From: Okeania sp. SIO2B3
GTDB lineage: Bacteria > Cyanobacteriota > Cyanobacteriia > Cyanobacteriales > Microcoleaceae
Direction of reading: 5' to 3'
Length of the DNA stretch: 64,000 bases
NCBI RefSeq assembly: GCF_010672525.1
Contig: NZ_JAAHGH010000005.1
Span: 372,672 to 436,671 of the forward strand
The notes under the pieces are model-generated. The model was not told where the DNA came from. It was given only the letters and a program-made list of their open reading frames with translations, and made no database searches. A program made the translations under genes and the position numbers. Below, in pieces: positions 1,010 through 64,000 of the stretch (position 1 is the first letter of the stretch; every line of letters begins with the position of its first letter).

Positions 1010-4000
1010 ATGAGTTCACTACTACAGTCAGAACAGACAACACTAAAACAAGGGGTTAAAAATGCCCCGACTAAAACTTCAGGTCTGTTTCTGAGTAATC
1101 GAATTAAAATAATTGAAAATTTGTGGGAATTAGTTCTAGAGCAAGAGTGTGGCCAAGAATTGGTAAGTATACTCCAGAAAATGCGCTCGGTTAATTCTCC
1201 AGAAGGACAAGCTTTTAACTTTCTAGATTCAGAAATTGTACAACTTATTGAACAGTTAGAACTCAAAGATGCAATTAGGGCAGCTCGAGCTTTTGCTATA
1301 TATTTTCAGCTAATCAATATTGTTGAACAACATTATGAACAAAAAATTCAACAGTTAGCCTATTCTAATAACAAAGGTCTGGGACAACTAATCTTTAAAG
1401 ACGATGAAGCTAAGGATGGTGAAGCTTGTTCATTGCGAGTTGGAAGTATTCCAGTATGGAGCGATAACAGAAGTAAACCTGAAGGAGAGGGGACATTTCA
1501 TTATCTATTTCCCCTATTGCGGACTCTGAACGTACCATCTCAATTAATTCAACGATTAATTGATAACTTAGATATCCGTCTAGTGTTTACAGCACATCCT
1601 ACAGAAATTGTACGTCATACAATTAGAACAAAACAGCGACGCATTGCCAAAATTTTCCAACAGCTCGATCTAGTAGAAGAAAGTTTGTCAGAATTTTCTG
1701 TAGATGGAGCACAGGAAAATTCTGTGGTTTCATCCTGGGAAACAGAATCTCTCAAGGAACAGTTAACAGAAGAAATTCGTTTGTGGTGGCGTACAGACGA
1801 ACTACACCAATTTAAACCTACTGTACTTGATGAAGTAGAAACGACTCTTCATTACTTTGAAGAAGTGTTGTTTGAAGCTACTCCCAAACTATACCAAAGG
1901 TTTAAGCAAGCTCTGCATAATTCTTTCCCTTACTTAAAACCACCTACTTTCAATTTCTGTAAGTTTGGGTCTTGGGTGGGAGCTGACCGCGATGGTAATC
2001 CTTTTTGTACACCAGAGGTGACTTGGCAAACAGCTTGCTATCAACGTAAGATAGCGTTAGATAAGTATATTGATATTGTCGATTCCCTGATCGAACTTTT
2101 AAGTTTGTCGTTGCATTGGAGTGATGTTTTACCAGAACTGCTGGACTCCTTAGACCGCGACCAATTGCAAATGCCCGAAGTATATGACCAGTGGGCAATT
2201 CGCTATCGGCGAGAACCCTATCGGTTGAAGTTGTCTTATGTGAGAAAGCGTTTGGAAAATACTCGCGATCGCAACTGGCGCTTGTATAATGGTGATTCCC
2301 TCCAAAGACAAATGGAAGTTCTCTCCCAACGTCGAGAAACAGCAGCAGTTTATCGTTCTGGTGCGGAATTTCTAGAAGAGTTACAACTAATTCAACGTAA
2401 CTTGATCGAAACTGGTTTAAGCTGTAGTGACTTGGAAAATCTCATTTGTCAGGTTGAAATTTTTGGCTTCAATTTAGCACGACTAGATATCCGCCAGGAA
2501 TCTTCCGTCCATGAGGCTGTGATTAATGAAGTTACTGAATACTTACAAATTCTGCCTAAACCCTATATTGAAATGTCAGAAGCAGAGCGTACTGAGTGGC
2601 TATCAACAGAATTGCCTACTCGTCGCCCACTAATTCCTGCAGAACTACCTTTTTCTGAGAGAACTTGCGAAATCATTAACACTTTCCGAATGTTGCGACA
2701 GCTACAGGTAGAATTTGGCCCAGAAATTTGCCAAACTTACATTATTAGTATGAGTCGTGATGTCAGCGATATGTTGGAAGTATTGTTGCTAGCACAAGAA
2801 GCAGGACTTTATGACCCGGCAACTGGTGCAAGTGAGATTCAGGTGGTGCCTCTATTTGAGACGGTGGAAGACTTGAGAAACGCTCCCAGGGTAATGCACG
2901 ATTTATTTGAATTGCCTTTGTATCGGGCAGCACTTGCTGGTGGATATAATCAATTACAAGAACCAGCAGACTCTCAAATGCAATCTGAGTTAAAGACTCT
3001 TTATTTGCAAGAAGTGATGCTTGGTTACTCAGATAGTAATAAAGATTCTGGGTTCCTCAGTAGTAACTGGGAAATTCATAAAGCTCAAAAAGCTTTACAT
3101 AAAATTGGTGAGGAATATGGTATCGCATTGCGGATATTTCATGGACGCGGTGGTTCGGTAGGACGTGGTGGTGGTCCTGCTTATAAAGCGATTTTGGCTC
3201 AACCTGGTAAGAGCATTAGTGGGCGGATTAAGATTACTGAACAAGGTGAGGTGCTGGCGTCTAAATATTCTCTACCTCAGTTGGCAATGTATAACTTAGA
3301 AAATGTTACTACTGCAGTTATTCAAGCTAGTTTACTACATACAGGGTTTGATGAAATTGAAACCTGGAATGACATTATGGAAGAGTTGGCAGTGCGATCG
3401 CGTACTCATTACCGACATCTGATTTATGAACAAGAGGACTTGGTAGAATTTTTCTATCAAGTTACCCCGATCCAAGAAATTAGTCAGCTACAAATTAGTT
3501 CTCGTCCAGCTCGGAGGAAAAATGATAAAAAGAAGACAATTTCTGGTTTACGGGCAATTCCTTGGGTGTTTAGCTGGACTCAAAGTCGCTTCTTACTGCC
3601 TGCTTGGTATGGAGTAGGAACTGCTTTACAAGAATTTGTGCAAAAGCAACCAGAAGAACACCTGAAACTTTTCCAGTACTTTTATCTGAAATGGCCATTT
3701 TTTACTACAGCAATCTCAAAAGTAGAGATGACTCTAGCGAAGGTAGATTTACAAATGGCTCATTATTATGTCCGAGAATTATCTAATCCAGAAGACCGGG
3801 AAAGATTTGAGGCGTTGTTTGAGCAAATTTCTACTGAATATAAGCTAACGCGGGATTTAGTTTTACAAATTTCTGGCCATCAACGACCTTTAGATGGAGA
3901 GCCAGATTTGCAGCGTTCTGTGCAGTTGCGGAATGCTAATATTGTTCCTCTAGGTATGTTGCAGGTAGCTTTGTTGAAACGCTTGCGTCAGCATGATACA

Positions 4001-4260: not shown

Positions 4261-5088
4261 TTAGACTTTCTGAGCAATCTGAAGTGCAGATAAGTAGGAA
4301 AGGTTAATGATATTGCCATAATATTTTTTTAAAGTTGTACTCAAATTTTCAAATAAAGTATTACGTTGCTTTGCATCCATTGCTATATAAGGTGATAAGG
4401 TGCTTAAAAGTGCTAGATAATCATCAATATCATAAGTTACTTCACATATTAATTCTTCGGAAACTAAGTTTTGAAACTTACCAGAGTCAATAACCGCATT
4501 CCCTATACTACTAATATTTTTTCGATGAGTTGCGATCGCTTCATACCCTTTTAAATCAGATGTACAGCTCTGATAAACTGAATCTAATAATTCCTGATAA
4601 ATATCTTGACTTGGTTGGGGTGGAGTATTCCAAAGTAAAACTAAAAAGCCATTGGTTTTTAAAACGTCAGCAGTTTTAGCATAACGAAATTCAGACGATA
4701 CCCAGTGAAAAGAAGTAGCAGCAAGCACTACATCAAACTGATTCTTTTCTAATTCCCACTCTTCAAAAGTAGTATTGATGGTTTTCACTCTTTGATAGTG
4801 AGCACAATTTTTCACAGCTATTTTATAAGATTCTGAATTTGGTTCTACGCATACCATAGAAAAACCAAGATCGGCAAAGCTAGTTGTTGCTGTTCCTGTA
4901 GCACATCCTATTTCTAAAATCTTAGTATTAGAAGAAAGTTGGGCTATTTCTACGACACGGTTGACTAATGATTGGGGATAACGAGGTCTAGTTCTATCGT
5001 AAGCATCTGCTATTTGGCCATACCAATTGGATTTCTGTTCCAGGTTAAAGTCTTGATACCAGTTATTTTTTGGTGAGGAATCAGACAT
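4261..5088 (-). CDS. Class I SAM-dependent methyltransferase
   Basis: The 275-residue protein has the Rossmann-type SAM-binding motif I ILEIGCATGTATT at residues 57-69, followed by the acidic motif II (VCVEPNSE) about 20 residues later and a motif like VVLAATSFHWV. The family transfers methyl groups from S-adenosylmethionine, and the closest general type is the UbiE/Methyltransf_11-like group. The substrate cannot be told. The N-terminus contains YGQIADAYDRTRPRYP, common in this group. It lies convergent with ppc, with no operon partner. Confidence 0.85.
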   Translation of the reverse strand: MSDSSPKNNWYQDFNLEQKSNWYGQIADAYDRTRPRYPQSLVNRVVEIAQLSSNTKILEIGCATGTATTSFADLGFSMVCVEPNSESYKIAVKNCAHYQRVKTINTTFEEWELEKNQFDVVLAATSFHWVSSEFRYAKTADVLKTNGFLVLLWNTPPQPSQDIYQELLDSVYQSCTSDLKGYEAIATHRKNISSIGNAVIDSGKFQNLVSEELICEVTYDIDDYLALLSTLSPYIAMDAKQRNTLFENLSTTLKKYYGNIINLSYLSALQIAQKV

Positions 5089-5287
5089 AATTGTTTTAAA
5101 TATTAATATTTTTATTTTAGATTAGCCTTATAATAATCGGTAAAATGTCAAGATTGTGTAAAAGTTTGGCTAATATATATTAGTGAAACATCTTGCTTTA
5201 TAAAAACTTTATCTACACCCCAAATCCCTTTAGTCAAATATTAACAATGATAAAAACTTTGTTGTCTTAGTTGTCCTAATTCCATAC

Positions 5288-6555
5288 AAAAAAACCCAGC
5301 CAGTTTTGGCCAGGAATTATTAATCAGGGTGTATCTTATGAAATTATATTTTTACATACATTGCGACAAAATCAAGAAAATTTGTTAAATAAAAAAACCT
5401 CCACCAATTACGGTGGAGGCTATCTATCAGGGTGCATCTACCATTTCTTTTTCCCATATTCTTATCCTTAATCCGGGAATTATCAATTTGATTTTCTGTT
5501 GTTTTTGTGCAAAAAAAACCTCCACCAATTACAGCGGAGGTTATCCATCAGGGTGCATCTACCATTTCTTTTTCCATATTCCTCATACTTAATCCGGGAA
5601 TTCTCAATTTAATTTGAGAGTGTTTTACTGTCAAAAAAAAACCTCCACCAATTATGGCGGAGGTTGTCTATCAGGGTGCATCTACCATTTCTTTTTCCAT
5701 ATTCCTCATACTTAATCCGGGAATTCTCAATTTAATTTTCTACTGTTTTTGTGCAAAAAAAACCTCCACCAATTACAGCGGAGGTTATCTATCAGGGTGC
5801 ATCTACCATTTCTTTTTCCCATATTCCTATACTTAATCCGGGAATTCTCAATTTAATTTTCTGTTGTTTTTGTTCCAAAAAAAACCTCCACCAATTACAG
5901 CGGAGGTTATCTTATCAGGGTGCATCTACCATTTCTTTTTCCCATCTTCCGATACTTAATCCGGGAATTATTAATTTGATTTTCTACTGTTTTTGTGCAA
6001 AAAAAAACCTCCACCAATTATGGCGGAGGTTATCTATCAGGGTGCATCTACCATTTCTTTTTCCATATTCCTCATACTTAATCCGGGAATTATCAATTTA
6101 ATTTTCTGTTGTTTTTGTGCCAAAAAAAAACCTCCACCAATTAAGGCGGAGGCTATCCATCAGGGTGCATCTACCATTTCTTTTTCCCATCTTCTTATCC
6201 TTAATCCGGGAATTATAAATTTAATTTGAGAGTGTTTTAGTGCCAAAAAAAAACCTCCACCAATTAAGGCGGAGGCTATCCATCAGGGTGCATCTACCAT
6301 TTCTTTTTCCCATCTTCCTATACTTAATCCGGGAATTATAAATTTGATTTTCTGTGGTTTTACTGTCAAAAAAAAACCTCCACCAATTACGGCGGAGGCT
6401 ATCCATCAGGGTGCATCTACCATTTCTTTTTCCCATCTTCCGATACTTAATCCGGGAATTATAAATTTGATTTTCTGTGGTTTTACTGTCAAAAAAAAAC
6501 CTCCACCAATTAAGGCGGAGGCTATCCATCAGGGTGCATCTACCATTTCTTTCTC
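5288..6555 (-). repeat. Tandem array of ten 122-bp units plus one diverged unit
   Basis: The core CCTCCACCAATTA (plus strand) recurs at 5398, 5519, 5642, 5763, 5885, 6008, 6131, 6254, 6377 and 6500, a period of 121-123 bases, with the intervening sequence conserved. A diverged unit lies at 5288-5338: it shares ATCAGGGTGTATCT but has a different stem (GCCAGTTTTGGC core). On the minus strand each unit holds arms CCTCCGCC and GGTGGAGG around a six-base loop, followed by 7-9 T. Apparent open frames across the array arise from the repeat itself, because 123 is divisible by three. Confidence 0.97.
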
Positions 6556-6716: not shown

Positions 6717-7490
6717 CTATTGATGTCGATGGACCATGGTTGCATTGGCCTGGTCTGTGGGTACTACCAATAGTTCGCTGATATTGACATGGGGCGATCG
6801 CGTAACGCAGAAAAATACCAAATCTGCTATATCATCTCCCGTTAATGGTGTCAAGTCTTTGTAAACATTTTTAGCTTTTTCTGTGTCCCCATGGAATCGG
6901 ACATCGCTAAATTCTGTCTCTACTAAACCTGGTTGAATTTCGGTTACTCGCACGGGAGTTCCTAGTAAATCCTGTTTTAACCCCTCAGAAATTGCTCTAA
7001 CAGCAGCTTTAGATGCACAATAAACATTACCTCCGGGATAAGCAGCACGACCAGCAATAGAACCAATATTAACCACATGACCTTGACTACGATTAACCAT
7101 TCCTGGCACTACATAGCGAGTCATGTATAGTAATCCTTTAACATTAGTATCAATCATTTCTTCCCAATCGTTGAAGTCCCCAACATGGAGTTTATCTAAA
7201 CCACGACTTAAACCAGCATTATTAATTAAAATATCAATATTTTTCCAAGGGTCAGGCAAAGAATTTATTGCTGATTCTACTGCTAGGCGATCGCGTACAT
7301 CTAGCTTTAATAAATAAGTTTTACACTGGAATTTTTTAGTTAATTCATCAGCAAGTTTTTCTAGTTTTTCTTGGCGACGAGCAGCCAAAATTAGATTTGC
7401 ACCTGCTTGAGCAAATACATTGGCACAAGACTCTCCAATACCACTACTAGCACCTGTAATTAAGACTATTTTATCCTCAACAGAAATCAT
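6717..7490 (-). CDS. Short-chain dehydrogenase/reductase (SDR family)
   Basis: This 257-residue classical SDR has the nucleotide-binding motif TGASSGIG (residues 12-19), NNAG (90-93), and the catalytic set N116, S144, Y157 and K161 (YCASK). Arg38-Arg39 after the second strand suggests NADP(H) preference, as in YdfG-type 3-hydroxy acid dehydrogenases, which it most resembles. The substrate is unknown. Its 3' end faces the hairpin array, so transcription of this gene would run into the array in the orientation in which the hairpins resemble terminators. Confidence 0.9.
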   Translation of the reverse strand: MISVEDKIVLITGASSGIGESCANVFAQAGANLILAARRQEKLEKLADELTKKFQCKTYLLKLDVRDRLAVESAINSLPDPWKNIDILINNAGLSRGLDKLHVGDFNDWEEMIDTNVKGLLYMTRYVVPGMVNRSQGHVVNIGSIAGRAAYPGGNVYCASKAAVRAISEGLKQDLLGTPVRVTEIQPGLVETEFSDVRFHGDTEKAKNVYKDLTPLTGDDIADLVFFCVTRSPHVNISELLVVPTDQANATMVHRHQ

Positions 7491-47304: not shown

Positions 47305-47375
47305 AATTAATAAGGAAGAATAAAGAAGAAAGAAGGAAGAAGGAAGAAGGCAGAAGGCAGAAGGCAGAAGGAAAA

Positions 47376-48296
47376 ATTAATTAATCAATACCCATAAATA
47401 AACCTTTTAGTTCCTATCTTAATTTTCCTAATTTTCTACATTTTGTACAAGTAAAATTTTCTGTTAATGCCAGAAGGAAGAAGGCAGAAGGAAGGAGGAA
47501 AAATTAATTAATCAAAACCCAGAAATAAATCTTTTAATTGCCATCTTAGTTTTCCTAATTTTCGACATTTTTTACAAGTAAAATTTGCTGTTAAAGCCAG
47601 AAGTAAGAAGGAAGAGGGAAAATTAATTAATCAAAACCCACAAAGAAATCTTTGAATTGCCATCTTAATTTTCCTGATTTTCGACATTTTTCACAAGTAA
47701 AATTTGCTGTTAAAGCCAGAAGTAATAAGGAAGAGGAAAAATTAATTAATCAAAACCCACAAAGAAATCTTTGAATTACCATCTTAGATTTTCCTGATTT
47801 TCGACATTTTTCACAAGTAAAATTTGCTGTTAAAGCCAGAAGTAATAAGGAAGAGGAAAAATTAATTAATCAAAACCCACAAAGAAATCTTTGAATTGCC
47901 ATCTTAGATTTTCCTGATTTTCGACATTTTTCACAAGTAAAATTTGCTGTTAAAGCCAGAAGTAATAAGGAAGAGGAAAAATTAATTAATCAAAACCCAC
48001 AAAGAAATCTTTGAATTGCCATCTTAATTTTCCTGATTTTCGACATTTTTCACAAGTAAAATTTGCTGTTAAAGCCAGAAGTAAGAAGGAAGAGGAAAAA
48101 TTAATTAATCAAAACCCAGAAAGAAATCTTTGAATTGCCATCTTAATTTTCCTGATTTTCGACATTTTTCACAAGTAAAATTTGCTGTTAAAGCCAGAAG
48201 TAAGAAGGAAGAGGAAAAATTAATTAATCAAAACCCACAAATAAATCTTTGAATTGCCATCTTAATTTTCCTGATTTTCGACATTTTTCACAAGTA
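47376..48296 (-). repeat. Eight-unit tandem array between ATP-grasp and alpha-E genes
   Basis: ATTAATTAATCA starts units at 47376, 47503, 47622, 47741, 47861, 47981, 48100 and 48219. The periods are 119-120 bases, except the first (127). Inner units are almost identical and the outermost at 47376 is the most diverged. Each unit contains TTTCGACATTTTTCACAAGT and TTTGCTGTTAAAGCCAGAAG. In the operon direction the units read TCEKCRKSGKLRWQFKDFF before a stop. Two units (4 and 5) have an extra base that breaks this, so coding constraint is doubtful. Confidence 0.95.
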
Positions 48297-63202: not shown

Positions 63203-63410
63203 TTTTATCTCTTTAGTAGCATTTGATTGACTACAGTATTGACCAATTGCTGCTATTAATGCAGCTATTATTACTGCAGTATTATTTCTTCAAGATTTCA
63301 TTAATGAAGTCAAAAGTAATAACTTACAATAAATTGGAAAAAATGATTCAGACTAAACAACGATTGGCAATCATATTATGTCTTATAACGTCGCTAATCT
63401 ATAATCAAAT

Positions 63411-63623
63411 ATGACAAATCCTTTAATATCCAAATTAAGAATTAGTAGATTTTTATCGATTTTACATAAAAATTTGATAAATCGAAGCTGGATATTTTGG
63501 TTTGGTTTAAGTTTAGCTATTGTCTTAATTTATGGTTTTGAATCTCTAAAAGTATCCTTCCAAAGTGAATATTTTATCCAAGATGATGCACGACAACATA
63601 TATTTTGGATGCGTCGTTTTTAG
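63411..63623 (+). pseudogene. Truncated start of a large membrane-protein gene, copy 1
   Basis: 70 residues: MTNPLISKLRISRFLSILHK, one helix (WIFWFGLSLAIVLIYGF), then YFIQDDARQHIFWMRRF and a stop. With one more T in the run of five the frame would continue LDAELFPQDFINEVKSNNLQ. The QDDARQHIFWM...LFPQDF motif is the start of large multi-span proteins in cyanobacteria. So this is a 5' fragment closed by a frameshift. Confidence 0.7.
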
Positions 63624-63760
63624 ATGCAGAATTATTTCCTCAAGATTTCATTAATGAAGTCAAAAGTAATAACTTACAATAAATTGGAAAAAATGATTCA
63701 GACTAAACAACGATTGGCAATCATATTATGTCTTATAACGTCGCTAATCTATAATCAAAT

Positions 63761-63973
63761 ATGTCAAATCCTTTAATATCCAAATTAAGAATTAGTAGAT
63801 TTTTATCGATTTTACATAAAAATTTGATAAATCGAAGCTGGATATTTTGGTTTGGTTTAAGTTTAGCTATTGTCTTAATTTATGGTTTTGAATCTCTCAA
63901 AGTATCCTTCCAAAGTGAATATTTTATCCAAGATGATGCACGACAACATATATTTTGGATGCGTCGTTTTTAG
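63761..63973 (+). pseudogene. Truncated start of the membrane-protein gene, copy 2
   Basis: Identical to copy 1 except at codon 2 (Ser for Thr) and a few silent bases. It ends with the same five-T run and stop. The sequence after it (63976 on) again starts LDAELFPQDF in the alternative frame; whether an intact gene or another copy follows lies outside the window. Confidence 0.7.
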
Positions 63974-64000
63974 ATGCAGAATTATTTCCTCAAGATTTCA

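Follow-up and report, generated by a model that had tools for sequence, protein, structure and literature searches.

The minus strand of the 64,000-nucleotide stretch of Okeania sp. SIO2B3 DNA analysed here (hereafter the window) carries between positions 5286 and 6545 an array of ten units, each about 122 bases long, and an eleventh, divergent one, and there is very little doubt that these units are tandem genes for the small RNA NsiR1. Taken together, the data make it fairly probable that the NsiR1 encoded by the array acts in trans and that a locus elsewhere in the genome, C157, is its partner, in a lineage that is not known to form heterocysts.

The Rfam model for NsiR1 (RF02399) matched ten out of ten units with 54.8 to 59.4 bits, the gathering score being 39. 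The matches lie, all on the minus strand, at 6492 to 6545 (unit 1, the promoter-proximal one, 55.8 bits), 6369 to 6422 (unit 2, 55.3 bits), 6246 to 6299 (unit 3, 55.8 bits), 6123 to 6176 (unit 4, 55.8 bits), 6000 to 6053 (unit 5, 59.4 bits), 5877 to 5931 (unit 6, 55.4 bits), 5755 to 5808 (unit 7, 56.6 bits), 5634 to 5687 (unit 8, 59.1 bits), 5511 to 5564 (unit 9, 55.1 bits) and 5390 to 5443 (unit 10, 54.8 bits). These positions, along with the repeat delimited in the window by Tandem Repeats Finder (5391 to 6552, period 123, 9.5 copies, 90% matches), bear out the initial annotation, which had described ten minus-strand units made of a hairpin and a T-tract. It had also proposed RNAs of about 80 bases, and this length has to be revised, since the Rfam model gives approximately 54 to 60 nt. 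Each predicted RNA consists of a conserved 5' region, for which the model holds a stem of three base pairs at most, followed by a 3' hairpin and a U-tract, and with these predicted ends it fits the NsiR1 form of around 60 nt. The most conserved part of the units is the 5' stretch AGATGCACCCTGAT, rather than the terminator stem; all ten Rfam-matched units share it unchanged, and unit 11 departs from it at a single base. Anabaena NsiR1 had been offered as a parallel, and the relationship holds, but it goes beyond a parallel, as the units are themselves NsiR1 according to the covariance model.

The array is flanked upstream by an ORF resembling short-chain dehydrogenases (SDR; 6717 to 7490) and downstream by a methyltransferase-like ORF (4261 to 5088), both on the minus strand and both labelled from their sequence; the latter is also present in the related loci L068 to L071. 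Of 74 related loci, 22 have the NsiR1 seed and a T-tract downstream of an SDR-like gene; among the remainder, several contigs stop early. In a search that may have omitted this genome's own records, the closest named relatives of a gene near the array belong to Okeania sp. SIO1I7 (98%), SIO2C9 (93%), O. hirsuta (90%) and SIO3B5 (90%). Other repeats were noted in the window: a second tandem array at 47347 to 48296 (period 119, 7.9 copies, 93% matches), a 350-base direct repeat (2.1 copies, 98%) that occupies 63275 to 64000 and reaches the window end, and numerous 7-base short tandem repeats.

The stem of the units is a real RNA hairpin. Its 3' arm, GGTGGAGG, is identical in all ten units, while the 5' arm appears as CCTCCGCC in six of them, CCTCCGCT in three and CCTCCACC in one. 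With a constant 3' arm and a 5' arm in three forms, every change keeps pairing in minus-strand RNA as G-U, U-G or A-U (according to the alignment, A-U replaces G-U in unit 10), and nine of the ten units show A-C mismatches on the plus strand, so that the strand specificity of the stem changes pointed out initially is confirmed. Only two of the eight stem pairs vary within the ten units, and covariation was evaluated on a broader set: 47 sources yielded 175 matches, and the 150 best of these were aligned, with 107 distinct copies among them. Here, 92.5% of stem cells are paired, compared with 76.2% after shuffling, in an alignment that was fitted to the structure and is therefore biased in favour of pairing. 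Double changes were found in nine of ten pairs (shuffles average 6.2, and 10 out of 500 reach nine), and 150 cells changed on both sides, versus 42 in shuffles; when the partner columns were slid by one to three positions, double-change cells fell to 24 or fewer. The covariation over the 107 distinct copies upholds the idea that selection has acted on a minus-strand hairpin.

Unit 11 (5286 to 5340, minus strand) contains AGATACACCCTGAT and ends in T7. It had been singled out as an outlier with a different stem that still pairs, and indeed its fold is CCUGGCCA/UGGCUGGG, two of the pairs being wobbles; this fold, taken alone, is unremarkable (z -1.75, with 14 of 200 shuffles as good). The unit scores below the Rfam gathering score for RF02399. 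Its status as a copy comes from model R1, built from the other copies without unit 11, which matched it with 26.6 bits and a rough E value of 0.0011. In L068, L070 and L071 units of this type reappear, promoter-like sequence included, and L073 has one with a changed stem; a TATAAT-type -10 element, read from the sequence at 5343 to 5348 on the minus strand, is kept in these four loci. In L069, the last copy of the array is of the ordinary kind. Three more NsiR1 genes above the cut-off are present in the same genome, a single one at C240 and two together at C112, and they combine different terminator stems with nearly the same 5' region. Regarding gene neighbourhoods, the tandem NsiR1 pair with like stems (L010:8925-9165) has a tmRNA gene on one side and, on the other, an ORF whose end is PEP-CTERM-like (a label read off the sequence), and the single NsiR1 gene with another stem (L009:5295-5350) is found between two unrelated genes. 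Weak NsiR1 matches were not trusted, as the E. coli control genome also gives matches below the cut-off.

A DIF1-like box, CCCGGA, precedes units 2 to 10, that is, nine of the 11 units in the window; units 1 and 11 lack it. The boxes, in the upstream sequences on the minus strand, are at 6456-6451, 6333-6328, 6210-6205 and 6087-6082 for units 2 to 5, at 5965-5960, 5842-5837, 5721-5716 and 5598-5593 for units 6 to 9, and at 5472 to 5477 for unit 10. For a wider comparison, 204 distinct units from this and related loci were collected, allowing up to two mismatches to AGATGCACCCTGAT with ACCC fixed, and the 22 without a T-tract were set aside. The exact seed is present in 152 of the remaining 182, an identity that is partly due to selection because units were chosen by their match to AGATGCACCCTGAT. 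The motif [TC]CC[GT]GA starts between -50 and -38 before AGATGC, nearly always at -38 or -39, in 156 of these 182 units, which are related and not independent, and in shuffles it was found in 0.9 on average and in four at most; the strict form TCCGGA appears in 71 of the 182. In HetZ- and HetR-dependent promoters of Anabaena, DIF1 (TCCGGA) is centred near -35, according to the cited part of that work (PMC7377430). The boxes of nine of the 11 units sit at about this position and constitute putative promoters. Each unit would then be transcribed separately under HetR/HetZ-type control, and the copy number would therefore set the dose.

This genome encodes HetR (PF03574), whose distribution was compared with that of NsiR1. 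Among 59 relatives, this genome included, 46 have both, two only NsiR1 and 11 neither; the two with NsiR1 and without HetR are G031 (81% complete) and G042 (99% complete). In a class-wide set of 291 cyanobacterial genomes, which includes this one and shares some with the 59 relatives, NsiR1 was found over the cut-off in 148 of 150 genomes with HetR and in four of 141 genomes without it (G070, G085, G153 and G298), the figures at E ≤ 0.001 being 150 of 150 and 10 of 141. The association over the 291 genomes gives a Fisher's p of 1e-75, uncorrected for shared ancestry. In G042 (loci L075 and L272), which belongs to another family, there is no PF03574 match, and 11 NsiR1 matches, several of them beside a hetF-like ORF, were observed together with a sponge-like locus. 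Okeania is placed in the Microcoleaceae, Oscillatoriales. It has been reported that hetR and patX are present in filamentous cyanobacteria that never form heterocysts, and in the section cited their functions there 'remain a mystery' (PMC11298460).

A genome-wide search for the complement of NsiR1 led to C157 (L249:2740-3380). Fifteen complement loci were inspected (L053 to L067), including L063, which is unit 11 itself, and only C157:3129 (L058) is located within 30 nt before an ATG. Those in L055, L060, L062, L064, L065 and L067 were discarded as lying at the edge of a dispersed repeat, and several other near-perfect complements as being inside or antisense to ORFs; three further wobble matches were recorded in L230, L234 and L247. 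The dispersed repeat has the edge GGGTGCATCTC, continuing as GAATAAAGCCAAAAATTTAT, with some 10 nt like the NsiR1 complement. The plus strand of C157 holds a small ORF, 66 codons long and hydrophobic at its start, which opens at 3149 immediately after AACAGGGTTCATCTACTACT. Three of these small proteins were searched against Pfam and NCBIfam and no family was found at E ≤ 0.1. Pairing of the ribosome-binding site of the small ORF with NsiR1 was calculated at -24.2 kcal/mol. None of 260 control start-like windows, which are first candidate ORF starts rather than verified ones, does as well (best control, -21.1), nor does any of 1000 shuffles; the energies at C157 in this genome are selected, because it was a search for complements that revealed the locus.

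Conservation of the site was then considered in other genomes. C157 DNA has matches in 22 of 44 genomes, and 19 of the 22 have the locus; the other three match only briefly, to one part. One of these (L273) was fetched, has no sites and was dropped, so that 19 of 20 fetched loci were kept, and the short-match genomes G006 and G015 were left out. The 19 loci represent 19 genomes, eight genera and two families, this genome included, and all of them keep an NsiR1-pairing site at the small ORF despite differing letters, for example AACAGGGTTCATCTACTACTATG in L254, ATCAGGGTCATCATCATG in L266, ATCAGGGGCATCAAAATG in L268 and ATCAGGGGCATCTCATG in L272. None of 300 shuffled RNAs paired as well in 16 of 17 tested loci, and one of 300 did in L264, the NsiR1 form used for several genera being that of Okeania and not the genome's own; two further loci were scored separately. 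Genome G010 has an NsiR1 gene as well as a C157-type locus. Only four of the 291 class genomes yielded the small protein, one of them weakly (E 0.006). It is therefore lineage-specific or too short to find, and such a partner cannot explain the conservation of the seed in all HetR lineages.

Divergent to the small gene, about 250 nt of the minus strand of C157 are conserved; they hold no ORF of 40 codons or more and end in a hairpin and a T-tract, a terminator situated past a gene labelled queE-like from its sequence. The RNA predicted from this region carries a tandem series of sites complementary to NsiR1, in many cases spaced by 16 nt. Complementary stretches of at least 7 nt number 75 in the 19 loci, against 3.6 with shuffled NsiR1 (maximum 10 in 300); there are 51 exact ATCAGGG copies and 75 within one mismatch, versus 5.4 in shuffles. 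In L266 to L271, ATCAGGG occurs at 0, 16, 32 and 64 (the last being ATTAGGG in L268), with ATCGGG, read from the sequence, at 48, and in L272 ATCAGGG is at 0, 16 and 51 and ATCAGGT at 32. Loci L254 to L264 have two exact ATCAGGG each plus one-base variants, with spacings of 16 to 59 nt, and in nine of the 12 loci L254 to L265 one of the sites is 14 nt long (GTTATCCATCAGGG) and reaches into the part of NsiR1 that follows the seed. Three ATCAGGG within 100 nt are present in eight of the 19 loci (L265 to L272; L275 and L276 are the same genomes again), and no such group was found on either strand of 3.99 Mb of other sequence, in which overlapping loci were counted repeatedly. The looser criterion of four 7-mers in 250 nt is also satisfied in five of 19,558 overlapping windows of relatives, and the argument consequently relies on phasing and conservation, not on the bare count. 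The terminator stem covaries modestly (two pairs with double changes, with a whole-fold covariation term of -0.29) and is not evident in L269 and L270. No Rfam match was obtained with L249 at E ≤ 0.1. We also considered the plus-strand repeats of C157 as a mimic of NsiR1 and rejected this option, given that the ATTAGGG variants keep wobble pairing with NsiR1 only if the RNA is the minus-strand one, a strand argument based on few independent events and in which ATCAGGT (13 cases) loses its last pair.

Several other explanations were weighed. The units could be nothing but serial terminators between the SDR and methyltransferase genes, one of the two readings first proposed, and the succession of hairpins and T-tracts in the same direction as both neighbours would agree with it. 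Nevertheless, the conserved 5' stretch, the promoter-like box at a fixed distance before units 2 to 10 and in 156 of the 182 units compared, and the presence of the same RNA outside arrays, at C240 and C112, make this hardly credible; it is the other reading, small RNAs that start inside each unit, that is supported. The array could also be an ordinary one, as in Nostoc PCC 7120, with NsiR1 repressing hetF through antisense pairing and, in trans, regulators like HetP; the complements at C157 would then be due to chance. In that strain, 12 tandem NsiR1 copies lie next to hetF, as stated in the cited portions of two reports (PMC9045159, PMC8406250). As far as those portions go, the array described here resembles that of PCC 7120 in sequence, fold, tandem layout, individual promoters with the DIF1 motif and divergent edge copies, and differs from it in the host, without heterocysts, in its location, next to an SDR gene and not near hetF, in that neither a site complementary to hetF nor the HetP family was found, and in an edge copy without the DIF1-like box. 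A position next or antisense to hetF is the context of PCC 7120 and does not define the NsiR1 family; it is absent here. The shared RNA family and DIF1-like promoters speak for an ordinary array, and so do the HetP-like start regions that pair well with NsiR1 in five of 20 loci of relatives (L212, L214 to L216 and L229; 0 or 1 of 200 shuffled RNAs as good), with ORF and start chosen by script, which leads us to think that different lineages may use different targets. In a Calothrix genome, the NsiR1 array adjoins a CHAT-like ORF that we take to be HetF from its published position next to nsiR1, and the hetF-like ORF of this genome, on contig C46 and thus off the contig of the array, is its relative. 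Its region from -600 to +90 differs from the 14-nt complement by at least six mismatches (ungapped), and between -300 and +60 pairing is no better than in shuffles, 299 of 300 being as good, and it was rejected as a target in this genome; perfect complements upstream of hetF do exist in L171, L172, L188 and L193, where NsiR1 genes lie in that position. HetP-like genes were likewise rejected as targets here, since the family (NF037966) gave no match at E ≤ 0.001 in five Okeania genomes (19 of 44 genomes overall match). All this makes the ordinary-array explanation improbable.

Slightly less remote, and still unlikely, is that only the site at the small ORF is a true target and the minus-strand RNA of C157 has another job, for instance as a structured leader or antisense RNA. 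Its 5' half is conserved without likeness to the NsiR1 complement, and in the consensus fold of 11 loci a long-range intramolecular pairing uses one of the complementary sites. Against this stand the ATCAGGG repeats phased by 16 nt in two families, and the 14-nt GTTATCCATCAGGG, which in nine of the 19 loci is complementary to NsiR1 beyond the seed. Bacterial sRNA sponges are RNAs with sRNA-complementary sites that titrate the sRNA. The C157 RNA would share both traits, and it differs from sponges in general in opposing several short sites, partly spaced by 16 nt, to a multi-copy sRNA array, and in that the putative sponge is divergent to the putative target. Our preferred reading, in which the C157 locus would work as both target and sponge of NsiR1, is to our mind evenly balanced between right and wrong, judging from the sequence comparisons.

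The mechanism that we infer, including transcription, control by HetR in this host, repression and titration, would be as follows. HetR/HetZ-type activation of many DIF1-like promoters would produce a pulse of NsiR1 whose dose depends on copy number. The RNA would act in trans through its ACCCUGAU region, covering ribosome-binding sites of the AUCAGGG type and blocking translation, and one of the genes repressed would be that of the small secreted protein at C157, whose ribosome-binding site is nearly the complement of NsiR1. The divergent C157 RNA would titrate NsiR1 via its tandem sites and thereby set a threshold, and synthesis of the protein would be turned off once NsiR1 exceeds it.

An NsiR1-like RNA in a non-heterocystous genus has already been published: RNA162 of Limnospira indica PCC 8005, a 57-nt sRNA, is likewise encoded by a filament former without heterocysts, and the cited part of its description, unlike the case presented here, names no array, target or partner RNA (PMC8400943). 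In the literature searched, as far as the texts consulted extend, no NsiR1 array, target or sponge was found described outside heterocyst formers. NsiR1 tracks HetR almost without exception across 291 genomes, and its two published targets do not track into Okeania. A broader proposal, towards which we are tentative and lean slightly to the negative, is that in Microcoleaceae, and in one or more families besides, a HetR/DIF1 circuit older than the heterocyst, with NsiR1 as its RNA output, drives a dedicated module. Its elements would be the multi-copy array, a natural sponge with 16-nt-phased sites and, divergent to the latter, an unannotated small secreted protein whose ribosome-binding site would be the point of repression. 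The present results would place one concrete RNA, and one candidate target with its decoy, downstream of HetR in non-heterocystous organisms; if the proposal is true, filaments that form no heterocysts would have in this module a switch that governs cell state by titration.
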